DNA of 39,752 nt, taken from the NCBI GenBank assembly GCA_030619885.1, contig JAUXAN010000023.1:1-39752 (forward strand), written 5' to 3'. Every line of letters begins with the position of its first letter. The stretch's first letter is position 1. A model generated the notes under the pieces. The model ran no database searches, was not told where the DNA came from, and worked only from the letters and a program-made list of their open reading frames with translations. Of this stretch, positions 16,329 through 34,963 are shown piece by piece. Made by a program: the position numbers and the translations under genes. This stretch comes from a bacterium. Lineage in GTDB: Bacteria > Hydrothermota > DG-26 > JAUXAN01.

Positions 16329-16370
16329 CTTTCGGTCTTGGGTGTTCGGTTTGCGGTGTTCGACCTACCG
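16329..16370. repeat. CGGTGTTCGG-type micro-repeat island
   Basis: TTCGGTCTTGGGTGTTCGGT, then TTGCGGTGTTCGACC and CCGTTAACCGACA, between HdrA-d and MvhD-3. It is an imperfect array of the TTCGGTG word. Confidence 0.6.
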
Positions 16371-19300
16371 TTAACCGACACCCGCCTTTATAGATTCTAA
16401 TCCTGCATCGATCATTACAAGTGTCTGTTCTGATTTGAATCCAAGTTGTTGCATCGCCCCTGATGGGCAAGCACTTGCACAGTTTCCACAGCCTTTACAC
16501 ATCGCCTTGTTGATTTGAGAAAGTCTCTTCCCCTCTTTTTCAACAACTTGCGGAGCGTCATAGGGACAAACAGATACACACATCCCACAACCCGAACAGA
16601 CATTTTCATTTACAGAAGCAGTAATCGCCTCTGCTTCATACTTGTCTTTTGAGATAATTGTGCCTGCCCTTGCGGCAGCAGCTTTAGATTGAGAAATAGT
16701 TTCATCAATAGTCTTTGGTGAATGTGCTAGACCAGCAAGGAAAACGCCTTCTGTAGAAAAATCAACGGGCCTTAACTTAACATGCGCCTCTAAGAAGAAT
16801 TTGTCTTCATTTAAGGGGACTTTTAGCATCTGCGATATATCGGGTGCATCGGCTCGAGGAACTATTGCAGGTGCAAGAACTATAAGGTCTGGCTCTATTA
16901 CAAGATAGCTACCTAAAATGGGATCCTTTACTTTAACTCGCAAGCCATTGCTCTTGTGCTCCTGTGCTCCTGTGCTCCTGTGCTCCGATGTACTTGTTTC
17001 TACAACGGGTTTTTCTTCTTCCTCATATCTTATGAAGGTTATTCCATTATCCCTTGCCTTCTGATAATATTCTTCAAGGAATCCATAAGTTCTGACATCT
17101 CTGTATAAGATGTATATATCTACTTTTGGGTTGAGTTCCTTTAGTTTAAGTGCATTTTTGATTGCTTCTTGACAGCATACCCGTGAGCAATATGGATGTT
17201 CATCATCTCTTGAACCAACACATTGAATCATAACTACAGTTTTCGGTAATCGGTAATCGGTTTTCGCTTTGTTCGCCTTGCGCTTTGCCGGTTTCTCCGA
17301 TAACCGATCCTCGACAATCGATAATCGTTTTTCTAATTCGAATTGGGTAATAACTCGCTCATCCTCTCCGTACAAATACTCTTTCTGCTTTAATTCCTCA
17401 GCACCTGTAGTTACCACAATAATACCGTGCTCTATTTCGTTACTCCGGTGCTCCTGTGCTCCAGTGCTCTGGTCCTCTGGAGCACTGGAGGACTTGTCAA
17501 CTGGAGCACCTACTATTCGCGTCTTATAATTGCCTATATATCCTTCAATATTTTCAATGCTCGCCTCTTTATATACTTTGACTTTCGGATGATTTTCTAC
17601 CTTCTCAATCAGTGAATGCAGATATTCTTGAACATCTCCACCTTGTATCGTGTAGTAAAGACTTTTTAGGTTTCCACCAAGTTCTTTTTCTCTCTCAACA
17701 ATCGAAACTTCAAATCCTTGTTCAGCAATGGAAAGAGCTGCCTCCATTCCAGCAAGTCCTCCACCAATGACTAATCCTTTCTGAATAACATCAAGTTCAA
17801 CAATAGGTAAAGGCTCTAATAGTCGTGACTTACTAACAGCCATCCGAACAAGATACTTTGCCTTCTCTGTAGCTTTCTTTGGTTCATTCATATGAACCCA
17901 ACTGCACTGATCTCTGATATTAGCCATCTCAAATAAACGGGGATTTAATCCAGACTCTTTCAAGGTCTCCTGAAAAAGTGGCTCATGTGTCCTTGGCGAG
18001 CATGACGCAACTACTACACGGTTTAAATTGTGTTCCTCTATTACCTGTTTCATCTTTTGTTGGGTATCCTGTGAACAGGTAAAGAGATTATCTTCAGCGT
18101 AAGTAACACCAGGTAATGTTTTTGCATATTCTACAATAGAGGGAACATCTACCACGCGACCTATATTTATTCCACAATGGCACACAAATACACCTATCCT
18201 TGGAGACTCACCACTAAGATCGCGCTCTGGTGGATATGTCTTTTCAACAATTTCTGTACCCCTGACATCTGAAAGCAACTCTGCTGCAGAAGCTGCTGAT
18301 CCAGACGCCTGCATTACAGTTTCAGGAATATCTTTTGGAGATGATGAAGTGCCACATATAAATATCCCGTCTCGTGTTGTTTCAATAGGTAAAAATCTTG
18401 CCGTTTTAAAGAAATTATGCGCGTTCAATCTAACCCCAAATTTGTCTGAAAGTGCCTGAATCCCCTCCGAAGGCTTAAATCCAACAGAAAGCACTACCAG
18501 GTCAAATTCCTCGGACAGCTGTTTGCCGTCTTCTTTAGTATAATAAACTAAAACATTTCCAGATTCTTCTGCTTCTTCAATTTTTCCTACTCTTGATCTA
18601 ATAAATCTTACTCCGTAGTCTTGTTTTGCCTTTTCATAATATTTATCGAAATCTTTTCCGTGTGCACGAATGTCCATAAAGAAAATAGTAGGTTCAATGT
18701 CTTTTGCATGCTCCTTTGTAATAATTGTCTCTTTGAGGGCATACATACAACAGACGGAAGAGCAGTATAAATTATTAGAGTCTTCATCTCTTGAACCCAC
18801 ACACTGTATCCACGCTATTCTCTTCGGTAATTTGCCATCTGATGGCCTCTGCACGTGTCCCTGATAAGGGCCGGAAGCAGCCAAAATCCGTTCAAATTGG
18901 ATGCTGGTAATGACATTTCGATGTTTCCCGTATCCATACTCGTGTTTAATCGATGGATTAAATTTATCTGCTCCCAGTGCTAAGATAATGGATCCCACAT
19001 TGATTTCTAAGTGTTCCCCAGTCATCGAATGAAGTACTGCGTCTGCATCACATACTCGTTCACATTCTAAACATTCTGAACAAAGTCCACACTCCAGACA
19101 TCTGTCCACTTCTTCAAGTGCCATTTCCTCCGTAAATCCTAAATCTATCTCTTTGAAATCCTTTATCCTTTCTTCTACCGGCAATACTGGCATAATCTGG
19201 CGCTCTTTTTTTTCAATGAATTTCGAAATTTCTCTTGAAGGAAGTTCTTCAGTCGACTCCCCTCTACCCTCTTTGATATCATCACCTCTCAGGAACCTAT

Positions 19301-20963
19301 CTATAGATATAGCCGCTTCATGCCCTTGTCCAACAGCTTCAACAACTGATGCAGGTCCTTTCACTGCATCACCACCTGCAAAAAATCCATTTGCATCAGT
19401 AGCAAGAGTTACTGGATCACACGCAATAGTTCCATATCTGGTAATATTTACTCCAGTCTCTTCAAGGAATGAAAAATCAGAGACCTGGCCAATAGCTATG
19501 ATCACTGTATCACACTCAATAGAAGTTTTTATATTTTCATCAACTTTAGGACTAAATCTACCTTCTGAATCAAAAACAGAGGTGCATTTAATGAGGTCTA
19601 ACCTCCTAATTTTACCATCCTCACCCACGATTCTTTTCGGACCCCATGAGGGATGAAGTTTTACCCTCTCTTCAACTGCTGCCTCAATTTCCCACTCATG
19701 TGCTGGCATCTCTCTTCTTGACTCAAGACATGTAAGATGAACTTCAGATGCTCCAAGTCTTAGAGAGCACCTTGCTACATCAATGGCTACATTTCCACCG
19801 CCAATAATTGCTATCTTTTTGCCTATTTTTACTTCTTCGCCAGTATTTACACTTTTCAAAAACTCGAGCCCGAGGAAGACCCCAAGAAGGTCGGTACCTC
19901 CTATTCTAAGAGCTTTTCCCTTTTGGGCACCAACAGCTAAAAAGAATGCTTTATAGCCTTCCTTTTCGAGTTTCTCAAAGTCCTTTTTGGAAGTAATGGG
20001 GGTATTAGTTTTAAGTTCAACTCCATTTTTTAGGACCTCATTAATCTCCCATTCTATTTGATCTCTTGGTAACCTGTAAGGGGGGATACCCATCCTCATC
20101 ATCCCACCAGGTTTTTCTGTAGCTTCAAATATTGTCACAGGATAGCCAAGATTAGTTAGGAAATATGCACAAGCTAAGCCAGAAGGACCAGCTCCTATAA
20201 TAGCAATTTTTTCTTCTTTCTTCTCAATATTTTTCGGTTCCTCGGCTTGAAGTTCTTCTTTGTGAGTAAACACATAGTCTAAAATAAATCTCTTCAAGTT
20301 CATAATAGCTATAGGCTCATCGTATTCTCCTCTCTTGCACTTGTCTTCACAAGGATGATGGCAAACCCTCCCACAAATTGCTGGAAAAGGAAGATTTTCT
20401 CTTATCAAATTGTAAGCTTCCTTATATTTTTTCTCTCTAATAAGAGCAATATAGCCTTGAGCGTGCGTACCTGCGGGGCAGGTCTCCTGACATTGGGGCC
20501 TTGATTTTTTATCTATAGCAAAAGCATTGGGATAAGCCTGAGGATAGAGCCTAAAGACTGCTTTTCGGTCCACAAGAGATTCATCAAATTCAGATACTAC
20601 ATGTACTGGACAAGCTTTTTCACATTCCCCACAACCAGTGCATTTATCAATGTCAATAAATCTTGGGCGTTTGAATATTTTTACTTTAAAATCTCCAGCT
20701 TTTCCAGTAACTTCTTCTATCTCAGAGGAGGGTAAGAATTCAATATTTAAATGTCTCCCAAACTCCACAAGTTTAGGTGATATAATGCACATTGCACAAT
20801 CGTTGGTTGGGAATGTTTTATCAAGCTGAGACATGATACCACCAATAGCAGGAGAATCCTCAACAAGAAAAACTTTAAATCCTGAGTTTGCTAAATCCAG
20901 TGAAGACTGGATCCCTGCGATTCCTCCACCAACTACTAAAACAGCACCAGTCTTATTTTTCAT
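16371..20963 (-). CDS. hdrA: HdrA-d: giant HdrA with embedded GltD/NfnB-like flavodomain
   Basis: A 1530-aa flavin/iron-sulfur protein. Domain order: HdrA FAD module 1 (VLVVGGGIAGIQSSLDLA; CAMCIISPKLVE), ferredoxin motif CTGCGECEKACP (108-119), a complete GltD/NfnB-like insertion (about 150-600), the rest of module 1, HdrA module 2 (LVIGGGLAGMEAALSIA, about 1065), and two C-terminal [4Fe-4S] motifs (from Cys1456 and Cys1489). The insertion has CPAGTHAQGYI, CGRVCHHPCEDKC, an FAD loop IAIIGAGPSGLACA and a NAD(P)H loop IAIIGGGNVAIDVARCSLRLGA. So it could feed electrons directly from NAD(P)H. Three micro-repeat islands interrupt module 2 in frame. No Shine-Dalgarno is obvious at the ATG. HdrL-type large HdrA proteins of sulfate reducers are the nearest analogues I know. 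Confidence 0.92.
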   Translation of the reverse strand: MKNKTGAVLVVGGGIAGIQSSLDLANSGFKVFLVEDSPAIGGIMSQLDKTFPTNDCAMCIISPKLVEFGRHLNIEFLPSSEIEEVTGKAGDFKVKIFKRPRFIDIDKCTGCGECEKACPVHVVSEFDESLVDRKAVFRLYPQAYPNAFAIDKKSRPQCQETCPAGTHAQGYIALIREKKYKEAYNLIRENLPFPAICGRVCHHPCEDKCKRGEYDEPIAIMNLKRFILDYVFTHKEELQAEEPKNIEKKEEKIAIIGAGPSGLACAYFLTNLGYPVTIFEATEKPGGMMRMGIPPYRLPRDQIEWEINEVLKNGVELKTNTPITSKKDFEKLEKEGYKAFFLAVGAQKGKALRIGGTDLLGVFLGLEFLKSVNTGEEVKIGKKIAIIGGGNVAIDVARCSLRLGASEVHLTCLESRREMPAHEWEIEAAVEERVKLHPSWGPKRIVGEDGKIRRLDLIKCTSVFDSEGRFSPKVDENIKTSIECDTVIIAIGQVSDFSFLEETGVNITRYGTIACDPVTLATDANGFFAGGDAVKGPASVVEAVGQGHEAAISIDRFLRGDDIKEGRGESTEELPSREISKFIEKKERQIMPVLPVEERIKDFKEIDLGFTEEMALEEVDRCLECGLCSECLECERVCDADAVLHSMTGEHLEINVGSIILALGADKFNPSIKHEYGYGKHRNVITSIQFERILAASGPYQGHVQRPSDGKLPKRIAWIQCVGSRDEDSNNLYCSSVCCMYALKETIITKEHAKDIEPTIFFMDIRAHGKDFDKYYEKAKQDYGVRFIRSRVGKIEEAEESGNVLVYYTKEDGKQLSEEFDLVVLSVGFKPSEGIQALSDKFGVRLNAHNFFKTARFLPIETTRDGIFICGTSSSPKDIPETVMQASGSAASAAELLSDVRGTEIVEKTYPPERDLSGESPRIGVFVCHCGINIGRVVDVPSIVEYAKTLPGVTYAEDNLFTCSQDTQQKMKQVIEEHNLNRVVVASCSPRTHEPLFQETLKESGLNPRLFEMANIRDQCSWVHMNEPKKATEKAKYLVRMAVSKSRLLEPLPIVELDVIQKGLVIGGGLAGMEAALSIAEQGFEVSIVEREKELGGNLKSLYYTIQGGDVQEYLHSLIEKVENHPKVKVYKEASIENIEGYIGNYKTRIVGAPVDKSSSAPEDQSTGAQEHRSNEIEHGIIVVTTGAEELKQKEYLYGEDERVITQFELEKRLSIVEDRLSEKPAKRKANKAKTDYRLPKTVVMIQCVGSRDDEHPYCSRVCCQEAIKNALKLKELNPKVDIYILYRDVRTYGFLEEYYQKARDNGITFIRYEEEEKPVVETSTSEHRSTGAQEHKSNGLRVKVKDPILGSYLVIEPDLIVLAPAIVPRADAPDISQMLKVPLNEDKFFLEAHVKLRPVDFSTEGVFLAGLAHSPKTIDETISQSKAAAARAGTIISKDKYEAEAITASVNENVCSGCGMCVSVCPYDAPQVVEKEGKRLSQINKAMCKGCGNCASACPSGAMQQLGFKSEQTLVMIDAGLESIKAGVG
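16941..17003. repeat. in-frame GGAGCACAGGAGCAC island in HdrA-d (island C)
   Basis: Four tandem CTCCTGTG units (coding strand CACAGGAG) encode STSEHRSTGAQEHKSNG at residues about 1323-1340, between a conserved strand and LRVKVKDPILG. Confidence 0.75.
17244..17327. repeat. in-frame CGGTAATCGG island in HdrA-d (island B)
   Basis: Encodes residues about 1213-1240, between the conserved FELEKRL and KTVVMIQCVGSRD. It consists of CGGTAATCGGTAATCGG-like words and their CCGATAACCGAT complements. HdrA-c carries a different island at the same position. Confidence 0.75.
17436..17510. repeat. in-frame GGTGCTCCTGTGCTCC island in HdrA-d (island A)
   Basis: Encodes residues about 1152-1176 between GNYKTR and IEHGIIVVTTGA. 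The units are CTCCGGTG, CTCCTGTG, CTCCAGTG, CTCTGGTC. They end in an inverted version (GGAGCACTGGAGGAC), so it is partly palindromic. Confidence 0.75.
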
Positions 20964-22582: not shown

Positions 22583-23628
22583 TTTATAACTTCTCTTATG
22601 TCCATATTTACAGGACAGCTTCTTATACATCTCCCACAACCAACGCACCCGAAATCTCCAAGATTTTCCACAAAGTAATTAAATTTGTGCATTATGCGCT
22701 GCCTCATCCTTTCTTTTGAACTCGGTCTTGGGTTATGTCCGGATGCCTCTTTTGTAAACAGTGAAAACATACAAGAGTCCCATACCCGAATACGCTTACC
22801 TCGGGCATTTCCTGCTCTTTCGTCTTGAATATCAAAGCAATAGCAGGTAGGACACAAATAACTACAAGCTGCGCAAGAGAGACACTTATAAGCAATCTCA
22901 TTCCATACAGGGTTATCCCATAGAGTATCTAAACCTTCTTTTAAAGAAGTAATATCAACCGGTTCACTCAATGTTGATTCGGCTTCCTTCCTGACAGTCG
23001 ATGCTCTTTTTATATCAACTTTTGCAGCCTTTTGTATGGGCAACCCTTTGGTTTTTATAAATTCTTCTCCATTCTGACTGCAGGGTTCAACAAGAAAATC
23101 TTCACCAATATCTGTGAGCAAGAGATCTGAGCCTTCTTTGGTGAATGGCCCACCGTTTAACCAATTACAAAAACATGTGGACAACGGGTAATTGCAGCCA
23201 ATAGTGAATATCAATGCATTGGTGCGTCTATTTATCCAGTAAGCATCCTTATATCCAGAACATTTCGCAACATTGCGCTCCATACCAAAAAGTCTGTCGA
23301 GGAGAGAAAAACTCTTTACATCACAGGGGCTTGCACCAAAAATGGCTATTTTATCGGTGTTCGGTGTTCGGTATTTGGTGTTCGGTTGCTCTGGAGGAGA
23401 TATTTTCCCTTCTTTATAAGTAAATAGGGTCTCGGTCTGAGGGAAGAATATCTCTTTAGGTGGTCTATCTGTATTATGAGAGTTGATAGTTGGAAGGTGG
23501 GAGTCGGAAGTTACTTCCTTAAAAGAACTTACTCCATCTGACTCAACAGGGATAAATACTCTATATTCTTTTGTCAGACTATCAATAAGTTCCTTTAAAC
23601 GTTTCTTTTTTATCTTGAAAGCAGCCAT
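22540..23628 (-). CDS. FlxB/HydB-like [4Fe-4S] electron-transfer subunit
   Basis: Iron-sulfur protein resembling sulfhydrogenase beta subunits (Fer4_22 type) and FlxB. The N-terminal half has IAIFGASPCDVKSFSLLDR, the P-C-D motif shared with FrhB/HydB proteins, and FTIGCNYPLSTCFC. The C-terminal half has two [4Fe-4S] motifs, CLSCAACSYLCPTCYC and CVGCGRCIRSCP, separated by RVWDSCMFSLFTKEASGHNPRP-like family sequence. It would pass electrons from the FlxA-like flavoprotein onwards. An in-frame CGGTGTTCGG island (encoding PNTKYRTPNTD) is inserted just before the conserved KIAIFGASPCD strand. At 362 aa it is near family length. Confidence 0.9.
   Translation of the reverse strand: MAAFKIKKKRLKELIDSLTKEYRVFIPVESDGVSSFKEVTSDSHLPTINSHNTDRPPKEIFFPQTETLFTYKEGKISPPEQPNTKYRTPNTDKIAIFGASPCDVKSFSLLDRLFGMERNVAKCSGYKDAYWINRRTNALIFTIGCNYPLSTCFCNWLNGGPFTKEGSDLLLTDIGEDFLVEPCSQNGEEFIKTKGLPIQKAAKVDIKRASTVRKEAESTLSEPVDITSLKEGLDTLWDNPVWNEIAYKCLSCAACSYLCPTCYCFDIQDERAGNARGKRIRVWDSCMFSLFTKEASGHNPRPSSKERMRQRIMHKFNYFVENLGDFGCVGCGRCIRSCPVNMDIREVINTIKNVKLTISNEK
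23354..23390. repeat. in-frame CGGTGTTCGG island in the FlxB-like gene
   Basis: TCGGTG, TTCGGTG, TTCGGTA, TTTGGTG, TTCGGTT units encode PNTKYRTPNTDK on the minus strand, immediately before a conserved Rossmann-like strand. Confidence 0.75.
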
Positions 23629-23666: not shown

Positions 23667-24671
23667 TTACATAATAAATTCTTCTTTATCGTCTTCATTA
23701 AAAGTCGCCATAGGTGGTGTAGCGTCTAAACTCAGACCTGCTGTATATCCAAATCTTTCTTTTATCTCTTTCTCAATTTTAATTCCAAGCGGTGCAAGGT
23801 CTACGTGAGTGGGACATGCCCTTATGCAAGCACCACATCCTACACATCTGCCCGCAGTATCTAACATCCGGGTTATGTGAAAAGTAAATGTGTCGGAAAA
23901 TTCGGTACTCTTCCCAAACCACTGAGGATTTGTCCGATCAACAACGCATTCTTCACAATAACAGAGGGGGCACGCATTCCTACATGCATAACATCTTATA
24001 CATTTGCTTATTTCATGCTCAAAATACTCCCATCTTTCACCAAAACTCAAGTTTTCAAGTTCGGTCATCGGTTCTTGCTTTTCGGTTTTTGCACCCGAAA
24101 CAGGTTCTCCAATAAAGCTATCATAGACAGAAGGGTCAGGATTGAGGCAGGTCTTACAGCTATCACAAAGAATATCGGATAGCTTCAATGCCTTTTTGAA
24201 ATCCTTCCCCTCAAACAGGACTTCGTCATCCTGGGGATTGTAGTTCAAAATCTCTTTGCCATTAAGTCTATCAGACACTTTCTTTAAATCGAGGATTCCA
24301 GTGCAAGCAATGCCAATCACTGTAATGTCTTCTTTTTTAACTTGTTTCTCCAGGATAAGTTGAACAATTGACCTCGCATCACATGCTTTTGCAATTATTC
24401 CTATCTTACAACGGTTCTCCATACGGACCGTAGGGTCGGTGTTCGGTTTTCGGTGTTCGGCACATTTTGACTTTTGTAGATATGTAGCTAAATTATTGCT
24501 ACAGGTAAGATCGAAGATTAAACTGTCCACATCTTTTTCCTCTCTGATAAAACAGGGTGTTGAGCGTAATGGGAGAGGACTCTTACTGTATCCGATAATA
24601 AGGTCTACCTTCTTCTCGGTTAAGAGTTTTCTCGCACACTCTTTTAATTCATTCTCTAATGATCGCATCAT
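23667..24671 (-). CDS. FlxC-like / FrhB-related [4Fe-4S] subunit
   Basis: Iron-sulfur protein with an N-terminal FrhB/HydB-related domain (IGIIAKACDARSIVQLI), a mid-region cysteine set (ILCDSCKTCLNPDP), and two C-terminal [4Fe-4S] motifs (CIRCYACRNACPLCYCEECV and CVGCGACIRACP). At 334 aa it fits the FlxC position between FlxB- and MvhD-like genes of Flx-Hdr clusters. Its start overlaps the stop of MvhD-2 (ATGATG around 24666-24671), so translation is coupled. An in-frame repeat insertion (residues about 71-86, encoding CAEHRKPNTDPTVRMENR) lies immediately before the conserved CKIGIIAKACDAR block. Confidence 0.85.
   Translation of the reverse strand: MMRSLENELKECARKLLTEKKVDLIIGYSKSPLPLRSTPCFIREEKDVDSLIFDLTCSNNLATYLQKSKCAEHRKPNTDPTVRMENRCKIGIIAKACDARSIVQLILEKQVKKEDITVIGIACTGILDLKKVSDRLNGKEILNYNPQDDEVLFEGKDFKKALKLSDILCDSCKTCLNPDPSVYDSFIGEPVSGAKTEKQEPMTELENLSFGERWEYFEHEISKCIRCYACRNACPLCYCEECVVDRTNPQWFGKSTEFSDTFTFHITRMLDTAGRCVGCGACIRACPTHVDLAPLGIKIEKEIKERFGYTAGLSLDATPPMATFNEDDKEEFIM
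24412..24463. repeat. in-frame island with 29-bp ATACGGACCGTAGGG element in the FlxC-like gene
   Basis: The element 24412-24440 (core ATACGGACCGTAGGGTCGG) matches 26331-26359 in HdrA-c at 28 of 29 positions, and both are read in the same frame (TDPTVRMENR). It is followed by TGTTCGGTTTTCGGTGTTCG repeats. Confidence 0.85.
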
Positions 24672-25117
24672 ACCCTTTTTACAAATCTCTTTGCTGGGCC
24701 AAGTTTTTTCACATCATCGGTGACTTTTTTTACAACCTGTGCAAATTTTTCTCCTTCACCAGCGGATACCCATGAGAATTGTACTCGACCTGGCTCAATT
24801 CCTATAAACTCTAATAATGTCTTTAAAATGGCAAACTTTCTTCGAGCATAGTAATTTCCTGAGATATAGTGGCAGTCTCCTGGATAACATCCAGAGACAA
24901 GTACCCCATCGAATCCATTCTGCAAACACTTCAATACAAAAATTGGGTTTATCCTGCCAGAACAGGGCACCCTTATAACTCGAATATTGGGCGGGTACTG
25001 GATTCTCGAGACCCCAGCTAAATCAGCACCAGCGTATGAACACCAGTTACATAAGAATGCAATTATTTTAGGTTGCCAGTTTCGGTGTTCGGTATTCGGT
25101 TTTCGGTGTTCGCTCAT
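24668..25117 (-). CDS. mvhD: MvhD/FlpD-type iron-sulfur subunit (MvhD-2, FlxD-like)
   Basis: MvhD-family [2Fe-2S]-type electron carrier, in the FlxD position of an Flx-Hdr set. The family core is intact: FLCNWCSYAGADLAGVSR, VPCSGRINP, SGCYPGDCHY, and VQFSWVSAGEGEKFA. The start at 25117 overlaps the stop of the four-helix-bundle gene (ATGA). The first 13 residues (MSEHRKPNTEHRN) are encoded by a CGGTGTTCGG island and are absent from the other two MvhD proteins here. The native start may therefore have been replaced. It is the most divergent of the three paralogs. Confidence 0.92.
   Translation of the reverse strand: MSEHRKPNTEHRNWQPKIIAFLCNWCSYAGADLAGVSRIQYPPNIRVIRVPCSGRINPIFVLKCLQNGFDGVLVSGCYPGDCHYISGNYYARRKFAILKTLLEFIGIEPGRVQFSWVSAGEGEKFAQVVKKVTDDVKKLGPAKRFVKRV
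25079..25113. repeat. CGGTGTTCGG island, right side of the four-helix-bundle gene
   Basis: TTTCGGTG, TTCGGTA, TTCGGTT, TTCGGTG, TTCG units overlap the start of MvhD-2 and the region just past the four-helix-bundle gene. Confidence 0.75.
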
Positions 25118-25473
25118 TTTTTTAATGCCTTAATCAAATTTCTAATCATTCTTGAGATATGATTTACCTCATCTAAAATAATATTAGATTCTTCTTCACT
25201 AATATATTTCATCTCTTTGGCTATAATTAACTGAGTATCAAGTTCAGCTCCAGAACCTAAAGCAATATATAAAAATTGAACAAATTCATTAGTATGCCCT
25301 CTCATTTTTCCCTCTGCTATATTGGACGGGATAGATACGGCCGCCCTTCGCATCTGACTAACAAGCCCATATATCTCGTCTTTAGGAAAGCCTTTTGTGA
25401 CAATATAGATTTTCTTAACCAACTCTATACTTTTCTTCCAAACTTCTAAATCTCTATAACTTCTTATTATCAT
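25114..25473 (-). CDS. four-helix-bundle protein (S23/IVP family)
   Basis: A 119-aa protein of the four-helix-bundle family (TIGR02436, first known from 23S rRNA intervening sequences). Diagnostic segments are RSYRDLEVWKKSIELVKKIY, QMRRAAVSIPSNIAEG and FLYIALGSGAELDTQL. The ATG at 25473 is supported by GGGGAGG seven bases upstream; the longer frame runs into the repeat island. Function is unknown for the family. It interrupts an otherwise purely electron-transfer operon between HdrA-c and MvhD-2 and has CGGTNWTCGG islands on both sides, which suggests it arrived as a unit. All three genes remain coupled. Confidence 0.9.
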   Translation of the reverse strand: MIIRSYRDLEVWKKSIELVKKIYIVTKGFPKDEIYGLVSQMRRAAVSIPSNIAEGKMRGHTNEFVQFLYIALGSGAELDTQLIIAKEMKYISEEESNIILDEVNHISRMIRNLIKALKK

Positions 25474-25485
25474 TTTTATCCTCCC

Positions 25486-25523
25486 CGACAACCGATTACC
25501 GATAACCGATAACCGAGTTAACC
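25486..25523. repeat. CCGATAACCGATAACCG island, left side of the four-helix-bundle gene
   Basis: CAACCGATTACCGATAACCG followed by ATAACCGAGTTAACCG. It encodes the last codons of HdrA-c (SVIGYR) and supplies its stop codon. Confidence 0.75.
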
Positions 25524-28500
25524 GCCTCAAATATCTGTTCATTAGTAAATCCTCTCAAATCTATGGCACCGCATCTACACGATGCAGAACAGGCACCACA
25601 ACCTTTGCACATCGCCTCATTTATCTCAGCTATTCCTTTCTCTTCATTGATTTCTATTGCAGAATAGGCACATATTTCCACACATACACCGCATCCTGTA
25701 CACCTATCAGGATTAACCGAGCATATCGTACCTTCTGCTAATATGGTTTTCTTGCTCAAGATAGTTAGCGCTCTTGCCGCCGCAGCTTCAGCCTGAACTA
25801 TGGACTCCTCTATGTACTTGGGTCCATGGGCGAGACCACATACAAAGATTCCATCTGTTGCAAAATCTACAGGCCTAAGTTTTACATGAGCTTCTAAGAA
25901 GAAACCGTCCTCATTCAGTGGCACCTTGAGTAATTTTGCCAAATCTTCATTTTCCTGAGGAGCATCTATTGAAACCGAAAGAACTAAGAGGTCCGATTCA
26001 AGCACTACTTGTCTGCCCAATATAGGATCTACAGTTTTTATTTTCAACTTGCTATCAGGATTTTCTTTATCAATAATCTCAACTCGTGGCTTGTGGTCCA
26101 AATCATATCTCATAAATACAACCCCATCATCCCGGGCCTGTGCATAATACTTTTCAGTTAATCCATAGGTCCTTATATCTCTATATAATATGTAAATGTC
26201 CGCGTTTGGATAAATTTCTTTCAGTTTCAGTGAGTTCTTCACTGCTTCACCACAACAAACTCGACTGCAGTAAAGTCTCCCCTCTTCTCGAGAATCCACA
26301 CATTGGATCATTACAACGGTTTTCGGTGGTCGGTTTTCCATACGGACCGTAGGGTCGGTTTTCGACCCACCGCTCACCGATGATAGTCTTTTTTCCAGCT
26401 CAAGTTGTGTAATTACTCTCTTGCTTTTTCCATACAGGTATTCCTCCGTCTTATATTCTTTCGCTCCTGTAGCCACAATCACAATCCCATTCTCTATTTC
26501 GGTTGTCGGTTTGCGGTTTGCGGTTTTCGACGGCCGATCACCGCTTACCGATGATAACCTCGTTTTGTAGTTTCCAATATATCCTGTAATATCTTCAATT
26601 TTAGCATCTGTGTAGACTGTAATGAGTTTATTCTTTTCTACCTTTTTAATGGTCTCTTGTAGCAATTTTTGAGGATCACTACCGTCTAAGGTATAATAAA
26701 TATCTCTCAAGTTTCCTCCAAGTTCAGATTCTTTCTCTATAAGTGCGACCTCATAACCTGCCCGAGCTATAGCCAATGCTGCTTTCATTCCAGAAAGTCC
26801 GCCACCAATTACAAATGCCTTGGGATTAATGTCTACTGGCAGTCTTCCTAAAGGGGTGAGATTTCTCGCCTTTGCCACTCCCATTTGCACTAAATCTTTT
26901 GCCTTCTCTGTAGCAAGTTCTGGCTCATTCATATGAGCCCAACTACATTGGTCCCTGATATTCGCCATCTCAAAAAGATACTGATTGAGCCCTACTTCCC
27001 TTAAAGTCTCTCGAAACAAGGGTTCATGGGTCCTTGGTGTACAGGCTGCAACCAGAATACGGTTGAGGTTATGTTCTTTAATTTTTTCCTTTATTGTATT
27101 TAAATAATCTTGAGAACATGCATATAAGAGATTTTCAGCATATTCAACATTTGGCAGGTTCTTGGTAAATTCAACCACTTTTGGAACATCCACAACACCA
27201 GCAATATTTATCCCACAATGGCAGATAAATGCACCGATTCTTGGTCTATCGCCTATTACATCCCGTTCAGGAGGAAACTCCTTCTTAGACACCCGCTCCT
27301 GTCGCTTGAGTGCCAAGAAGTTTGTGCATTCAGCAACAGCACCAGATGCTGACATTACTGATTCCGGAATATCCTTGGGGCCACTCATAGCTCCTGCCAC
27401 AAATATTCCGTCCCTCGTTGTATTAAGTGGAGTAAAAAGGTCTGTTCTAGCAAATCCAAATTCATCGAGTTTTATATCAAGCCTATCTGAAAACTCTTCC
27501 ATTCTCTTTCGGGGTTCTAATCCAACAGATAAAATAGCCATATCAAAATTTTCTTCCTTTGTCTTCCCATTCTCCTGTGCAAAACGCAGTCTTAACCTAC
27601 CTCCATCCAATTCACTAATCTTGGCCACCTTAGATCTCACAAATCTAACACCAAATTGAGACTGAGCCCTTTCATAGTATCTATCAAAATCTTTGCCAAA
27701 AGCTCTTATATCCATAAAGAATATGGTCGGTTTAAGCCCTTTTATGTGCTCTTTTGCAATAATTGCCTCTTTGATGGCGTACATACAACAAACTGAAGAA
27801 CAATAATCATTTCTATTTTCTACATCCCTTGAACCCACACATTGAATAAATGCAACCCGCTTAGGTGATTTCCCATCCGAAGGACACACGACATGCCCTC
27901 TTTGTGGTCCACTTGCTGAAAGCATGCGTTCAAATTCAATAGAAGTTACTACATTCTTAAATCTCTTGTATCCATACTGAGCATGCACAATGGGGTCGTA
28001 TGGATCAATTCCCGATGCCAGGATGACAGCACCACAATTCAACGTGACAACTCTATCTTTATCCTCAAAGTTTATAGCCTCTGCTGAACATGCCTTTTCA
28101 CATAACCTGCAAGCCCCTTTAGTAAGATATAGACAGTGGTTTTTATCGATGAGGTAATTTGATGGGATGCTTTGGAGAAAGTAGCGATATATTGATTTCC
28201 GAGTTCTAAGCCCCATGTCAAACTCGTCTACTATCTTTACAGGACATTTCTCCTCGCAAAGCCTGCACCCAACACACTTTTCAGGGTCTACATACTTTGC
28301 ATGTTCAGTTATCTTGCACAAAAAGTTACCCGGTTCACCAGATACAGATGTGAGTGATGAATAGGTATGGAGTGTGATACCTGGATGTCTTGCGCATTCG
28401 CTCATCTTTGGAGCCAGAATGCATATAGAACAGTCATTGGTAGGGAAAGTCTTATCTAATTGGGGCATTCTCCCACCTATTGATGGAGTCTCCTCAACAA

Positions 28501-28600
28501 GGTGGACATCCGCTCCTAATTCAGCCAAATCCAATGATGCCTGAATCCCTGCTATCCCTGCCCCAACTACAAGAACTTTATCTTTCTTATACTTACCCAT
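25496..28600 (-). CDS. hdrA: HdrA-c: two-module HdrA flavoprotein
   Basis: A 1034-aa HdrA with two fused modules. Module 1: VLVVGAGIAGIQASLDLA, CSICILAPKMSECARHP, ferredoxin CVGCRLCEEKCP (109-119), a second cysteine group (156-171), and the CCMYA region. A linker domain starts at about 455 (IGAFICHCGINIAGVVDV). Module 2: AFVIGGGLSGMKAALAIA (about 595). Two C-terminal [4Fe-4S] motifs follow (CTGCGVCVEIC, CKGCGACSASC). HdrA carries the flavin used for electron bifurcation in Hdr complexes. Two in-frame islands lie at residues 681-701 and 740-758, and the C-terminal codons and stop are also island sequence. It sits between FrhB-like and MvhD-2/Flx genes and probably forms the HdrA of the Flx set. 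Confidence 0.95.
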   Translation of the reverse strand: MGKYKKDKVLVVGAGIAGIQASLDLAELGADVHLVEETPSIGGRMPQLDKTFPTNDCSICILAPKMSECARHPGITLHTYSSLTSVSGEPGNFLCKITEHAKYVDPEKCVGCRLCEEKCPVKIVDEFDMGLRTRKSIYRYFLQSIPSNYLIDKNHCLYLTKGACRLCEKACSAEAINFEDKDRVVTLNCGAVILASGIDPYDPIVHAQYGYKRFKNVVTSIEFERMLSASGPQRGHVVCPSDGKSPKRVAFIQCVGSRDVENRNDYCSSVCCMYAIKEAIIAKEHIKGLKPTIFFMDIRAFGKDFDRYYERAQSQFGVRFVRSKVAKISELDGGRLRLRFAQENGKTKEENFDMAILSVGLEPRKRMEEFSDRLDIKLDEFGFARTDLFTPLNTTRDGIFVAGAMSGPKDIPESVMSASGAVAECTNFLALKRQERVSKKEFPPERDVIGDRPRIGAFICHCGINIAGVVDVPKVVEFTKNLPNVEYAENLLYACSQDYLNTIKEKIKEHNLNRILVAACTPRTHEPLFRETLREVGLNQYLFEMANIRDQCSWAHMNEPELATEKAKDLVQMGVAKARNLTPLGRLPVDINPKAFVIGGGLSGMKAALAIARAGYEVALIEKESELGGNLRDIYYTLDGSDPQKLLQETIKKVEKNKLITVYTDAKIEDITGYIGNYKTRLSSVSGDRPSKTANRKPTTEIENGIVIVATGAKEYKTEEYLYGKSKRVITQLELEKRLSSVSGGSKTDPTVRMENRPPKTVVMIQCVDSREEGRLYCSRVCCGEAVKNSLKLKEIYPNADIYILYRDIRTYGLTEKYYAQARDDGVVFMRYDLDHKPRVEIIDKENPDSKLKIKTVDPILGRQVVLESDLLVLSVSIDAPQENEDLAKLLKVPLNEDGFFLEAHVKLRPVDFATDGIFVCGLAHGPKYIEESIVQAEAAAARALTILSKKTILAEGTICSVNPDRCTGCGVCVEICAYSAIEINEEKGIAEINEAMCKGCGACSASCRCGAIDLRGFTNEQIFEAVNSVIGYR
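26327..26383. repeat. in-frame island B in HdrA-c with the 29-bp element
   Basis: Encodes residues 740-758 (SSVSGGSKTDPTVRMENRP) between the conserved LELEKRL and KTVVMIQCV. It contains the element 26331-26359 also found in the FlxC-like gene. Confidence 0.8.
26498..26560. repeat. in-frame CGGTTTGCGG island A in HdrA-c
   Basis: Encodes residues 681-701 (LSSVSGDRPSKTANRKPTT) between GNYKTR and IENGIVIVATGA, the same loop that holds island A in HdrA-d but with unrelated repeat units. Confidence 0.75.
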
Positions 28601-29771: not shown

Positions 29772-30887
29772 TTAATCCTCTACCTCCTTGAGCTCCTCTT
29801 CTTTATATGTTGCCATGGGAACCGGCTCGTCTGTCTTTCTACCCGGGATATAGTCGAATAATTTTTGGGTCTCATCAGCTACCAGACCAAAGATTTGGGA
29901 TACAGGAATTTTCAGAGGACAGGCATCTTCGCAACTTCCACAGGATACACAAGAAAGGCTCATATGTGCCATCCGCCCTAAATGAAAAAGCAAGGTATCA
30001 GGAAGGAATCTGAGACCTCCGCTCATTTCCGCTCTAAAGAGATAATCTTCATAGGGATGTTTCAGTTTATCCGAATCAAAATAGCATTGTCGACAATAAC
30101 AAACAGGACAGACCCGCATACAGTTATGGCAGTTTATACATTTGCTAAAAGTATCAAGCAACCTGTCCAGCCCAACAACCCCGGGTTTCAACTCCTCTTG
30201 AAGATTTTTTCTCTTATTCTTCCTCTCTTCTGTAATTTCTTTCACTTTATCTTTCCAGCTACCTATCTCCTTTTTTGGCGAGATATCGAGCTCTTTTAAG
30301 ATGGCCTCCCCTTTTGGGCTGTTAGATATAATGAAGATATCCCTTTCTCCTGCTTCCAACATTCCAATGTGTATATCCGAAGCTCCCGTTGGCATGCTAA
30401 ATCTATGGCATACCTGACAAATCGGTCTCACAGACCCATTTCCCCATTGTTTAAAGACCTTTTCGAATGCATCTCCACCCTTCTTTGGGTTTTCAAGGTA
30501 GTCAGACAACGGCAATACCCCTGGGCAGTCAATACTAATAAGGAACACATTATCCAGCTCTACCTGGCCAAGTTTAGACAGTTCAATTGTTGCACTTATC
30601 TCACACGGTCTCATCACAGTAGCAATCCTCTTTCTCCCCTTTCCACGCCTCATTACACTGGAGATCGCTTTAGCCCCATGGACAGGCATAACCGGTGGCA
30701 ACGGAGATGCATCATCAAGTAATGAGTTATCCTGGGCAAGAACCCATACATAAGAATCTCCTGCAGGAACTTTCACAGGAATTAAAACAGTATCAAAACA
30801 TTTCCTTTCCAACCCCTTCTTTAAGAGATCAAGGATCGCATTTTCTCTCTTTTTCAACCCTGTGGTAGTTGATTTAGGTGCACTCAT
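29772..30887 (-). CDS. FrhB/FdhB-like iron-sulfur flavoprotein subunit (copy 1)
   Basis: Protein of 371 aa, paralogous to the next gene downstream. The shared core includes IATVMRPCEISATIEL, PICQVCHRFSMP, CINCHNCMRVCPVCYCRQC, FHLGRMAHMSLSCVSCGSCEDACPL and the ending VPMATYKEEELKEVED. The final glutamate-rich tail is conserved in both copies, perhaps a docking peptide for an HdrA partner (inference). Its start overlaps the HdrA-b stop by 4 nt (ATGA), so it is translationally coupled to HdrA-b. Confidence 0.85.
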   Translation of the reverse strand: MSAPKSTTTGLKKRENAILDLLKKGLERKCFDTVLIPVKVPAGDSYVWVLAQDNSLLDDASPLPPVMPVHGAKAISSVMRRGKGRKRIATVMRPCEISATIELSKLGQVELDNVFLISIDCPGVLPLSDYLENPKKGGDAFEKVFKQWGNGSVRPICQVCHRFSMPTGASDIHIGMLEAGERDIFIISNSPKGEAILKELDISPKKEIGSWKDKVKEITEERKNKRKNLQEELKPGVVGLDRLLDTFSKCINCHNCMRVCPVCYCRQCYFDSDKLKHPYEDYLFRAEMSGGLRFLPDTLLFHLGRMAHMSLSCVSCGSCEDACPLKIPVSQIFGLVADETQKLFDYIPGRKTDEPVPMATYKEEELKEVED

Positions 30888-32572
30888 CTCAAAGCCTCCA
30901 TAACTTCCTGATAAACTTGCCTAAAGGTAAAATGCTTATGGCTTGCTGCACCAGATGGACAGGCTGCTGAACAATTGCCACATCCTCGACATAGAACCTC
31001 ATTCACTACTGAAATCCTTTTTATCTCATCAAAGACGATGGCACTATAGGGACAGACAGAGATACAGGTCTTGCATCCTATGCAAAACGCATCTGATATT
31101 TCGGATATCTTTACCTCTGGTTCTAACTTCCTGCCAGGGATGAGTGAGGAGAGTATCCTCCCTGCAACTGCCTCTGCTTGAACTATCGAGTCTGGGATGC
31201 TTTTCGGACCCTGTGCACATCCTGCAATGAATACACCTTCCAGTGAGGTAGATACAGGACCAAGTTTCTCATGCTCTTCAGTAAAGAATCCTTCGTCACC
31301 TTGATGAATATTAAGGGTTTCAGCAATCTCAGAGGAATCACCGCTCGACTCAATAGCCGGCGCAAGAATCACCATATCCACATTTCGGTGTTCGGTTTTC
31401 GGCTTTCGGCTTTCGATTTTGTAGTTCACTGACATCTGTCCATTGGACTCGGTAACTTCAATATCTTGGGCACGGATGAAATCAACCCCTTCCTCTTTTG
31501 TCTCCTCATAGAATCTCTGATATGATTTTCCAGGCACACAGAGGTCAGAGTAAAATTGGGATATGTTGACCACGGGAATTTCTGCTTTTAAATATCTGGC
31601 AAACTTGATGGAATAGAGACAACATACCCTTGAACAATACCCCTTCTCTTCTCGCCCCACACAATGGATAATACCAACAGATTTGGGGGGATTACCATTT
31701 TTGAGAAGAATTTTCCCTTTAGTATTCATCCTCTCAAATTCCAATGCGGTATAGACATCACTCAATGTTCCGTATCCATACCTGGAAAGTTTCGTAGGGT
31801 CAAATAGATTTAATCCAGTAGTCACGACAACCGCTCCAACTTTGAATTCATTCTCCTCGGTTTCGGTTTTTTTCTTCACTTTTACAACAAAATTTCCAAA
31901 GAATCCTAAAACCTCCTCAACCTTGGTGTCAGTGAATGCCTCAATGTTTTCATTTTTAAGCACATCCTGGACTTTCTGTTCCAATATGTTGGAAGTCGGT
32001 TCCATTTTGGGAAACAGCTGTTTGAACTCTTTAGCCATGCCGCCGATGGATGATGTCTTCTCAACCAGATAGACCTTTCTATCTTTGGAGGCGAGTAATA
32101 GACTTGCCTCAATCCCTGCGATACCACCTCCGATCACTAATACATCAGGGTTAGATTCTATCTCTTTCTTCTCAAGTGGCGTGTGATAGCGAATTCTGCT
32201 AACAGCTGCTCTTGTATACCTTATCGCCTTTTCAGTGGCTTCTTCTTTATCTTCTACAATCCATGCGCATTGTTCACGGATATTGGCAAGTTGAAATAGG
32301 TAAGGGTTAAGACCGGCTTCTTCACATACATTCATAAATGTAAGTTCATGCAGTTTTGGTGAGCAAGCAGCAATTACTAAATGTGTCAAACCATGTTCTT
32401 CAATATTCTGTTTAAGGAATTTCTTCCCATCCTCAGAACAGAGGAGTTTGTGCCTTTTAGCAACTACTACGCCTTCGAGTCCAGAGACCGCATCGAGTAC
32501 TCTATCAATATGCACATTATCCGCTATATTAGGACCACATTCACATACATATACACCTATCTTCTCTTCCAT
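30884..32572 (-). CDS. hdrA: HdrA-b: HdrA module-2-type flavoprotein
   Basis: A 562-aa HdrA-like protein that corresponds to the second half of HdrA-c. It starts with the linker domain (IGVYVCECGPNIADNVHID; IAACSPKLHELTF; NIREQCAW), then an FAD module (VLVIGGGIAGIEASLLLA, about 144) that lacks the CSxCI cysteine pair, as module 2 of HdrA-c does. Two C-terminal [4Fe-4S] motifs follow (CIGCKTCISVCP, CRGCGNCSAACP). GGAGG precedes the ATG. With HdrA-a it forms a split equivalent of the fused two-module HdrA. One short in-frame CGGTGTTCGG island encodes SRKPKTEHRN before the conserved VDMVILAPAIE. Confidence 0.92.
   Translation of the reverse strand: MEEKIGVYVCECGPNIADNVHIDRVLDAVSGLEGVVVAKRHKLLCSEDGKKFLKQNIEEHGLTHLVIAACSPKLHELTFMNVCEEAGLNPYLFQLANIREQCAWIVEDKEEATEKAIRYTRAAVSRIRYHTPLEKKEIESNPDVLVIGGGIAGIEASLLLASKDRKVYLVEKTSSIGGMAKEFKQLFPKMEPTSNILEQKVQDVLKNENIEAFTDTKVEEVLGFFGNFVVKVKKKTETEENEFKVGAVVVTTGLNLFDPTKLSRYGYGTLSDVYTALEFERMNTKGKILLKNGNPPKSVGIIHCVGREEKGYCSRVCCLYSIKFARYLKAEIPVVNISQFYSDLCVPGKSYQRFYEETKEEGVDFIRAQDIEVTESNGQMSVNYKIESRKPKTEHRNVDMVILAPAIESSGDSSEIAETLNIHQGDEGFFTEEHEKLGPVSTSLEGVFIAGCAQGPKSIPDSIVQAEAVAGRILSSLIPGRKLEPEVKISEISDAFCIGCKTCISVCPYSAIVFDEIKRISVVNEVLCRGCGNCSAACPSGAASHKHFTFRQVYQEVMEALR
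31384..31421. repeat. in-frame CGGTGTTCGG island in HdrA-b
   Basis: TTTCGGTG, TTCGGTTT, TCGGCTT, TCGGCTTTCG units encode ESRKPKTEHRN directly before the VDMVILAPA strand. Confidence 0.7.
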
Positions 32573-32602
32573 TTGCCTCCTTCTTTTTTAAATTTCTCGT
32601 TT

Positions 32603-33883
32603 TCAAAGAGTTGACAGTACCTTCCCTACCGCTGCTTCCGATTGAGCTACCGAATCCTGAATGTCTTTGGGACCCTGGACGCATCCAGCAATGAACACCC
32701 CTTGTTTCGGGGTACACACAGATGCAAACTCCGAGTGCTCTTCTGTGAAGAAACCGTCTGTATCTTGAGGAATGTCGAGAACTTTAGAAAGTTCTGGGGC
32801 ATCTGGTCTTGGTTCAATCGCTGGCGCAAGGATTACCATATCAACAGCAAGACCGTTCTCTTCACCAGTCCCACTCTTATGCTTCACCACCATACCTTTT
32901 CCCTCCTCTGAAACTTCGATCCCATCGGAACGGATAAGGTTAACCCCTGTTTCTTTCATCTTTTCATAAAATTTCTGATACGACTTTCCTGGTATACATA
33001 GATCAGAGTAGAATTCGGATATCTTGACATCGGGCAGTTTGTGTTTCAAATAGTGGATAAATTTAAGGGAGTACATACAGCAGACTGTCGAGCAGTAACC
33101 TTTCTCTTTCCTGCCTACGCAATGGATGATAGCAACAGATTTTGGAGACTCGCCGTTTTTAAGCACGATGTTTCCTCCGGTAGGTCCGTTAGAAGCATAC
33201 ATCCTTTCAAACTCGAAGGCAGTGTATACATCGCTCAATTTTCCGTATCCGAATTGAGGAGTTTTTGTAGGGTCGAAAGTAGTGAATCCAGTGGTTACTA
33301 TAATCGCCCCAACTTTGAGTTCAATCTCTTCGTCTTTTTGAGTAAAGTCAATAGCCTCGAACATACAGGCTTCCTTGCATAACTGGCAGTCTTCTCCTTT
33401 TTTAAAACGGAGGCAATTCTCTGTATCAATGGCAGGAACATTTGGAAGCGCACCAGGACAAGGGACATATATTGCCTTTCTCTCCCCAAGTCCTTGCTCA
33501 AACTCATTTTTCAGACTGACAGGGCAGGGTTCAAAACAGGCACTGCATCCTATGCAGTTCTGTAAATCTACATACCTAGCCCTTTTTTTCACTTTCACGA
33601 CAAAGTTTCCGAATGAGCCTTGAATGGTTTCAACTTCGCTGAGCGTTAAAAGTTCAATATTTTTATCCTGTAGTAATTCCTGTTGTTTTGGCGCCACCAT
33701 ACAGGTAGCGCATTCCATGTTGGAGAATACTTCTTCATACTTTATTACATTACCTCCAATATAGGAGGTCTTCTCAACCAGATAGACCTTTCTCCCTGAG
33801 CGGGAGAGGAGTAAGCTCGCTTCAATCCCTGCTATGCCGGCTCCAATCACCAATACATCGGCATTATACCCCTTTTCTTCCAT
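32603..33883 (-). CDS. hdrA: HdrA-a: HdrA module-1-type flavoprotein (QmoA-like size)
   Basis: A 427-aa HdrA-like protein corresponding to the first half of HdrA-c. The ATG at 33883 follows AAGGAGGG and begins at the conserved VLVIGAGIAGIEASLLL; the longer frame overlaps MvhD-1. Motifs: CATCMVAPKQQELL (Cys58, Cys61), ferredoxin CIGCSACFEPCP (110-120), a second cysteine group (157-173), and VCCMYSLKF. It stops after IQDSVAQSEAAVGKVLSTL without C-terminal ferredoxin clusters. QmoA of sulfate reducers is similarly short, but no Qmo membrane subunit or Apr genes are here. It lies between MvhD-1 and HdrA-b. Confidence 0.92.
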   Translation of the reverse strand: MEEKGYNADVLVIGAGIAGIEASLLLSRSGRKVYLVEKTSYIGGNVIKYEEVFSNMECATCMVAPKQQELLQDKNIELLTLSEVETIQGSFGNFVVKVKKRARYVDLQNCIGCSACFEPCPVSLKNEFEQGLGERKAIYVPCPGALPNVPAIDTENCLRFKKGEDCQLCKEACMFEAIDFTQKDEEIELKVGAIIVTTGFTTFDPTKTPQFGYGKLSDVYTAFEFERMYASNGPTGGNIVLKNGESPKSVAIIHCVGRKEKGYCSTVCCMYSLKFIHYLKHKLPDVKISEFYSDLCIPGKSYQKFYEKMKETGVNLIRSDGIEVSEEGKGMVVKHKSGTGEENGLAVDMVILAPAIEPRPDAPELSKVLDIPQDTDGFFTEEHSEFASVCTPKQGVFIAGCVQGPKDIQDSVAQSEAAVGKVLSTL

Positions 33884-33894
33884 TTTTTCCCTCC

Positions 33895-34320
33895 TTATAG
33901 GGAAGTTTTCTCCTTCACAGGATTTGGTCCTAACTTCTTTATCTTCTCTGTGAATTCGGTTATTACCTCCTGAAATCTGGGACCCTCTGATGCAGATACC
34001 CATGAGAGCCTGAGCCTTTCCGATTCCAATCCCAGGGTCTCCATCACCTTTTTTAAGATAGCGAACCTTCTGCGGGCATAGTAGTTTCCTTTCTCATAGT
34101 GGCAATCACCGGGGTGGCATCCGGCAACGAGCACTCCGTCTGCACCCCGGAGAAATGCCGTTGCAACAAGAACCGGGTCTACTCTACCTGAGCACATCAC
34201 TCTGATAGACGAGACCGAGGGAGGCATTTTTAATTTGCTTGTCCCGGCAAGATCAGCACCAGCGTATGAACACCAATTGCAAAGAAAACCAACTATCTTT
34301 GGTGTAAATTCTCCTTTCAT
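33895..34320 (-). CDS. mvhD: MvhD/FlpD-type iron-sulfur subunit (MvhD-1)
   Basis: First MvhD of the cluster. Complete cysteine pattern: FLCNWCSYAGADLAG, VMCSGRVDP, AGCHPGDCHY; ending LRLSWVSASEGPRF. The ATG at 34320 gives 141 aa, the same length and alignment as MvhD-3; a TTG four codons upstream is less likely. It directly precedes HdrA-a (11-nt gap), matching the usual MvhD-HdrA partnership. Strong similarity to MvhD-3 at the far end of the cluster suggests duplication of an MvhD/HdrA unit. Confidence 0.93.
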   Translation of the reverse strand: MKGEFTPKIVGFLCNWCSYAGADLAGTSKLKMPPSVSSIRVMCSGRVDPVLVATAFLRGADGVLVAGCHPGDCHYEKGNYYARRRFAILKKVMETLGLESERLRLSWVSASEGPRFQEVITEFTEKIKKLGPNPVKEKTSL

Positions 34321-34354: not shown

Positions 34355-34579
34355 TTAGAACTGTATTTGTGCCTTGAACTTCCCCCCCCCTTCATCTGCA
34401 CAGACGAGGAGCGTCTTACTCATCCTTGTACACCATGCCTCAATATCTTTGGGGAAAGATGGGCAATCAGCTAATACTTCAAGCATATCACCAGGTGCAA
34501 GTTCTTTAGCCTTGACTGCTACCTTGAGTATAGGCTGAGGACATTTGAGTCCCAATGCATCGAGTGTATGTGTAGCCAT
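34355..34579 (-). CDS. tusA: TusA/SirA-family sulfur carrier
   Basis: A 74-aa sulfur-transfer protein with the diagnostic CPxP motif (LGLKCPQPILK, Cys13) that carries persulfide sulfur. The rest (PGDMLEVLADCPSFPKDIEAWC) is typical of the fold. GGAGG precedes the ATG. A run of nine G on the coding strand (34382-34390) encodes Gly-Gly-Gly near the C-terminus and could slip. It sits between the DsrE-like gene and MvhD-1 at the head of the Hdr cluster, a pairing also seen in sulfur-oxidising and sulfur-reducing Hdr-like systems, so persulfide delivery to or from the complex is a reasonable inference. Confidence 0.93.
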   Translation of the reverse strand: MATHTLDALGLKCPQPILKVAVKAKELAPGDMLEVLADCPSFPKDIEAWCTRMSKTLLVCADEGGGKFKAQIQF

Positions 34580-34606: not shown

Positions 34607-34963
34607 TCAAAAAGAAAATGTTACCTGGGCATCTTTAATCTCTGCCATAAACGAGGTTGCCCCGACGATTTCTATACCGTCTCTGAAATCTTCTTTTTTT
34701 AAATCTTTGGCTTCCAGAGCCAGTTCACAAAGAAGAATTCTACCTCCTAAATTCTGCACACCTTCAACCAATTCGATCATATCGGGCATACCTTTCGCTT
34801 TAATCTCATCCAGTACGCCTTTCTTTAAAGCCGGCGCGGCACCTGGGGTGAAAAACAAAATTACCTTGTCCCCTGCAGCTGCTGCGGCAGAACCCAGGAT
34901 AAAAGTAGGATAGAGGTTCTTAGGCTCTGAGCCATTGCAGACTATAGAGACTAATTTCGCCAC
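34607..34963 (-). CDS. DsrE/DsrF-family protein
   Basis: A 118-aa DsrE-fold protein, likely a soluble sulfurtransferase partner of TusA. The alanine-rich stretch FILGSAAAAAGDKVILFFTPGA and GGRILLCELALEAKDL are characteristic; the cysteine in LLCEL is the candidate sulfur-binding residue. The GTG start at 34963 has a strong AAGGAGG seven bases upstream. It is the first gene of the 19-kb cluster, with a consensus promoter about 100 bp upstream. Confidence 0.85.
   Translation of the reverse strand: MAKLVSIVCNGSEPKNLYPTFILGSAAAAAGDKVILFFTPGAAPALKKGVLDEIKAKGMPDMIELVEGVQNLGGRILLCELALEAKDLKKEDFRDGIEIVGATSFMAEIKDAQVTFSF

Follow-up and report, generated by a model that had tools for sequence, protein, structure and literature searches.

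Adjacent Hydrothermota HdrA genes with complementary domain losses probably arose separately from the fused HdrAs of the same operon

Introduction

In solved HdrA, the N-terminal iron-sulfur cluster is ligated partly by Cys197 of the other chain of the dimer (Chadwick et al. 2022, PMC9012536). Complete HdrAs, among them the Methanothermococcus protein (5ODC) and the five-domain HdrA on contig 18 of the genome studied here (C18; L021:6923-8878), are encoded by a single gene, hold all the domains and ligands in one protein and are expected to be homodimers. For ANME archaea, Chadwick et al. describe complementary HdrAs both as tandem pairs and in fused form (PMC9012536). HdrA5/6 and HdrA12/13 are the products of adjacent genes, one having the N-terminal domain without Cys197 and the other the reverse, and were proposed to form heterodimers.

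In the fused type II HdrAs (A3/A4; Yu and Lu 2025, PMC12054007) this domain set and its complementarity are found in one chain. Yu and Lu traced the fused form to one event that joined A6- and A12-like genes, and they noted a mosaic distribution of the domain classes over their tree (PMC12054007). In Chadwick et al. (PMC9012536), the N-terminal domain of fused HdrA3/4 is stated to be carried by the N-terminal module; the module order in the fused HdrAs of our window, in Moorella and in Yu and Lu's A6-then-A12 arrangement is the reverse. A further fused kind, with a GltD-like insertion, is represented by HdrL of Desulfobacterium autotrophicum (PMC2702500) and HdrA of Moorella thermoacetica (PMC9430772). 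In the Moorella protein, GltD interrupts the first of two thioredoxin-reductase-like domains, and the second has no inserted ferredoxin (PMC9430772).

The window analysed here, of 39,752 nucleotides, spans contig 29 of a Hydrothermota genome (2.46 Mb, 97% complete) from end to end. It encodes two short HdrA proteins, HdrA-a and HdrA-b, alongside a fused protein of the type II kind (HdrA-c) and one of the HdrL/Moorella kind (HdrA-d). A sequence-only reading had taken HdrA-a and HdrA-b for a split version of HdrA-c, and the operon for a record of split, fused and fused-plus-GltD forms.

Materials and methods

Domain models derived from the window sequence were applied to about 60 loci of related genomes. 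The modules of fused proteins are referred to as c1, c2, d1 and d2. A quick tree of 133 modules and a careful maximum-likelihood tree of 87 were made; sampling comprised one phylum, three named MAGs and four PDB chains. A scan of genome contigs with HdrA-b as the query found only three loci. The B-type row taken from L077 begins at the edge of its contig and probably represents a truncated fused gene.

Results

Operon order and domain anatomy

The operon is transcribed from the minus strand in the order dsrE, tusA, mvhD, hdrA-a, hdrA-b, two fdhB-like genes and hdrA-c (Table 1). On the same strand these are followed by an ORF for a 23S-rRNA-intervening-sequence protein, mvhD, a gene for a 334-aa Fe-S protein, hydB-like and hydG-like genes, and then by an hdrC-like gene, hdrA-d and a third mvhD. 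The intervening-sequence ORF (25114-25542; four-helix, PF05635) separates hdrA-c from its mvhD.

Table 1. Positions in the window of the cassette genes, of diagnostic parts of HdrA-a and HdrA-b, and of the fused hdrA genes used for comparison
Feature	Position	Strand	Basis
dsrE-like gene of conserved cassette	34607..34963	-	
tusA gene of conserved cassette	34358..34579	-	
mvhD, upstream of hdrA-a	33895..34320	-	
hdrA-a: FAD domain with inserted two-cluster ferredoxin; without N-terminal domain and C-terminal ferredoxin	32603..33883	-	domain models
Cys58 and Cys61 codons of HdrA-a (= Cys194/Cys197 of 5ODC)	33701..33712	-	5ODC alignment numbering
Inserted ferredoxin domain of HdrA-a, 8 conserved Cys	33326..33574	-	
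hdrA-b, 562 aa: N-terminal Fe-S domain, insert-free FAD domain, C-terminal ferredoxin	30884..32572	-	domain models
N-terminal Fe-S domain of HdrA-b (previously read as a linker)	32162..32572	-	
HdrA-b codons where Cys194/Cys197 are lost (Pro192...Asn195)	31988..31999	-	
C-terminal two-cluster ferredoxin domain of HdrA-b	30887..31132	-	
FdhB-like subunit 1, 371 aa; start overlaps hdrA-b stop	29772..30887	-	
FdhB-like subunit 2, 373 aa	28623..29744	-	
hdrA-c: fused a-type and b-type modules, another HdrA lineage (comparison)	25496..28600	-	
hdrA-d: fused modules, GltD-like insertion; genuinely related to hdrA-c (comparison)	16371..20963	-	

The HdrA-a reading frame opens with the ATG at 33883 and closes with the stop at 32603, giving 426 aa without the stop; a longer ORF of 466 aa at this position begins within mvhD. 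By the domain models, HdrA-a is composed of FAD(N), inserted ferredoxin and FAD(C), and it does have the domains of module 1 of HdrA-c, CxxC and ferredoxin motifs included, that had been assigned to it. HdrA-b is composed of the N-terminal domain, FAD(N), FAD(C) and a C-terminal ferredoxin, in agreement with its proposed match to module 2 of HdrA-c plus the C-terminal ferredoxin. HdrA-c and HdrA-d each consist of an a-type module followed by a b-type module; in HdrA-d the GltD-like domain lies in the first module, after the first cluster of the inserted ferredoxin. The CxxC motif is present in HdrA-a as MECATC. The CxCGxNI motif noted at the start of HdrA-b is present as CECGPNI, but the domain that carries it is the canonical HdrA N-terminal Fe-S domain and not a linker.

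In both HdrA-a and HdrA-b the ferredoxin domain retains all eight of its cysteines. Each of a, b, c1, c2, d1 and d2 has E356, K409 and the four cysteines of the thioredoxin-reductase cluster; among other B-type modules there were three exceptions at E356/K409. Both proteins are members of the HdrA family by their thioredoxin-reductase-like FAD domain and these residues. Neither is a canonical type I HdrA, with five domains in one chain, as HdrA-a is without the N-terminal domain and the C-terminal ferredoxin and HdrA-b is without the inserted ferredoxin.

Short arrays of a 7-bp unit (CCGAACA-like) were dispersed along the operon, several of them in frame within hdr genes (31383-31415 in hdrA-b, 26497-26529, 25066-25112, 24427-24459, 23352-23384, 16330-16362 and others). 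For one 17-mer of these arrays, 22 matches were observed against 0.32 expected. The array in HdrA-b encodes ESRKPKTEHRN, and the protein is 2-3 residues longer there than most orthologues. In hdrA-d, 8-bp tandem repeats (GTGCTCCT) were present at 16932-17010 and 17424-17494, where they encode STGAQEH-like stretches.

Complementarity of Cys194/Cys197 and the N-terminal domain

HdrA-a keeps Cys197 and has no N-terminal domain; HdrA-b is the reverse, and the same complementarity is found inside HdrA-c and HdrA-d. Cys194 and Cys197 (either of which may be selenocysteine) were both present in 20/20 separate a-type proteins and 31/31 first modules, and both absent from all 23 separate b-type proteins and all 35 second modules. 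The domain pattern, these counts and the intact ferredoxin cysteines together uphold the anatomical side of the sequence-only reading. The pair shows the arrangement that marks complementary tandem HdrAs, with the N-terminal domain in one chain and Cys197 in the other and, judged by its sequence anatomy, is one HdrA dimer spread over two chains. The pair resembles the ANME pairs in layout; those pairs are archaeal and have HdrBC/FdhAB partners, and no DsrE-TusA cassette is mentioned for them in the cited portion of Chadwick et al. (PMC9012536).

It is improbable that HdrA-a and HdrA-b instead pair with other HdrA chains (HdrA-c, HdrA-d or free ones), or that HdrA-a acts alone. The genome does contain many further HdrA chains, and in genome G116 a B-like protein is found without an adjacent A. 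However, a and b are adjacent, in fixed gene order, at every locus with enough sequence, including loci where no c was found, and the complementarity is exact in all a/b loci.

In HdrA-MvhD fusions (L023, on contig 61 of this genome, L026, L027 and L030) two in-frame TGA codons were present at Cys194/Cys197, and the resulting MDUAIUILG is likely a double-selenocysteine motif. Other relatives, A-type genes included, have selenocysteine at 197 alone.

Descent of the a/b pair

Over the FAD core, HdrA-a and HdrA-b are 59% identical to each other and 56% and 51% identical, respectively, to C18; identity to 5ODC is about 40%. These values, which the sequence-only reading had missed, are far above those of HdrA-a with c1 (38%) and of HdrA-b with c2 (32%). 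By direct alignment, a and b are differently trimmed copies of a C18-like protein. The a-orthologues, the b-orthologues and the complete C18-type HdrAs formed one clade in both trees. In the 87-module tree this clade (100/100) stood apart from c and d and contained the a-orthologues (100/97) and the b-orthologues (100/96) as groups. The grouping of a and b as sisters (98/87, or 94/83 with more complete HdrAs added) has moderate SH-aLRT support, at 87 or 83. A single clade of A-types and first modules was rejected by the AU test (lnL difference 158, p 0.0017), as was one of B-types and second modules (lnL difference 62.8, p 0.009). Per-domain identities put the N-terminal domain of a/b and both of its ferredoxins, inserted and C-terminal, closest to the C18 type. 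A tree-free character gave the same division: each of the 34 modules in the a/b/C18 clade has a Cys386-Cys399 spacing of 8 residues, and every other module measured has one of at least 10.

The most probable history by a wide margin, given the trees and alignments, is that a complete single-module HdrA of the contig-18 kind was duplicated and that the copies underwent reciprocal losses, yielding an asymmetric heterodimer converged on the c/d layout. After duplication, copy a would have lost the N-terminal domain and the C-terminal ferredoxin, and copy b the inserted ferredoxin and Cys194/Cys197; the layout of c/d, which come from a different HdrA lineage, would thus have been repeated by convergence. 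When further complete HdrAs were added to the tree, only complete proteins sat next outside the a/b/C18 clade, which sets the direction as loss from a complete ancestor. The distances of a and b are correlated (r 0.88), in keeping with this reading, though shared species history would give the same.

HdrA-a and HdrA-b have the same domain order as HdrA-c and the same complementary losses, and they are adjacent in one operon; a split form of HdrA-c, whether produced by fission or ancestral to the fusion, would account for this. The identities, trees, AU tests, per-domain comparison and loop spacing place a/b with complete HdrA, away from c and d, and the sisters of the c/d modules are other tandem pairs (L059, L060, L066, L072). 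HdrA-a did not group with first modules or HdrA-b with second modules, as the split form of a type II HdrA should; the two are mutual sisters apart from c/d. Fission products and precursors of c were both rejected on this evidence, and descent of the pair from or towards c is very unlikely. The sequence-only reading had named placement of a and b in unrelated HdrA clades as the result that would speak against it; this misses the problem, because a and b are each other's sisters and not c's. Its account of the operon stands for HdrA-c and HdrA-d, which are genuine relatives (c1-d1 56%, c2-d2 58%), and falls for a/b as their split form.

There is scarcely any likelihood that a and b were once split from c and then overwritten by gene conversion from a C18-type gene or from each other: the high a-b similarity in the window would fit, but all five of five domains are C18-like, with no c-like stretch seen at domain level in a or b orthologues and therefore no c-like remainder to explain, and the a- and b-orthologues each form one clade across many genomes, which argues against recent conversion.

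Fused HdrAs and their split relatives

In the tree, the first modules of the fused HdrAs are joined by separate A genes other than the a-orthologues (100/99), and the second modules by separate B genes other than the b-orthologues (100/100). On this grouping, A/B tandem pairs in genomes G001, G007 and G012 are the real split relatives of c/d, outside this operon; both kinds of pair are present in G012. HdrL and Moorella HdrA are fused and NAD(P)H-linked, and are relatives of d and not of a/b. The B-like HdrA of G116 (L120:5317-7092) has kept the N-terminal domain and lost the insert and both cysteines; it nests in a clade of complete HdrAs (100/99) and may represent a third symmetry-breaking event.

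A fold prediction for HdrA-c (pTM 0.83, 16 sequences) matched HdrA chains and is compatible with two modules packing on each other.

The GltD-like insertion was carried by hdrA-d of the window, by L024, L025, L075, L110, L120, L124 and L126, and by L022, L057, L068 and L078. Its carriers do not form one clade on the module tree and include complete HdrAs, which suggests repeated gain, loss or movement of the insertion.

Conserved cassette and candidate partners

Homologues of HdrA-b (47-71% identity) were found in about 15 of the 147 genomes searched in the phylum, in seven families. The order mvhD-a-b-fdhB-fdhB is constant, and a second mvhD is usually next; in the window this trailing mvhD is absent and hdrA-c follows directly. 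In G126 a complete C18-type HdrA and its mvhD come directly after the cassette. An upstream tusA was present in 12/12 loci tested; of the 11 loci with sufficient sequence, 10 showed dsrE as well, and in G003 it was not found. No description of a DsrE-TusA-MvhD-a-b-FdhB-FdhB cassette was found in the open-licence papers searched; the novelty here appears to lie in the pair's independent origin and in the sulfur-relay/FdhB cassette around it.

Both FdhB-like proteins gave matches to FdhB chains from solved Fdh-Hdr complexes. F420 and formate were rejected as their partner, as F420 ligase (PF01996) and molybdopterin oxidoreductase (PF00384) were not found in the 97%-complete genome. No HdrB domain (CCG, PF02754) was found on the contig of the window, all matches being on contigs 11, 14 and 61, and the locus does not encode an HdrABC set. 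DsrE and TusA hint at a persulfide carrier as a possible partner.

QmoA and QmoB are likewise two HdrA-like flavoproteins encoded side by side. A Qmo identity for a/b was rejected, since HdrA-b had no match to the MvhD domain (PF02662) and no sulfite-reductase domain was found in the genome.

Discussion

The complementarity of HdrA-a and HdrA-b leads us to infer a physical heterodimer, in which the pair would stand in, as a fixed unit, for one HdrA homodimer. The N-terminal cluster of b would be completed in trans by Cys197 (Cys61) of a. Electrons would enter from MvhD, fed by the FdhB-like subunits, through the C-terminal ferredoxin of b, pass to the two FADs with their bifurcation residues, and leave through the inserted ferredoxin of a to ferredoxin; such a unit would carry out bifurcation or confurcation.

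More tentatively, and with somewhat less than even confidence, we propose two things together. The HdrA dimer may have become a fixed A/B unit independently at least twice, once in a/b and once in the lineage of c/d and its tandem-pair sisters, with G116 as a possible third case; and the cassette may encode a hitherto undescribed complex, bifurcating or confurcating, whose partner in electron exchange is a sulfur-relay carrier and not a heterodisulfide.

If this is right, the same experiment on the HdrA dimer has been repeated by nature. The N-terminal cluster with Cys197, the ferredoxin exit and the MvhD entry would be what is needed once per dimer, and the flavins with E356/K409 and the thioredoxin-reductase clusters would be what is kept in both halves; the electron route would be testable through mutation of a single chain. 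Domain layout would also be a poor guide to HdrA descent, and separate lineages could be mixed within classes that are drawn up from domain content (A6, A12, type II).
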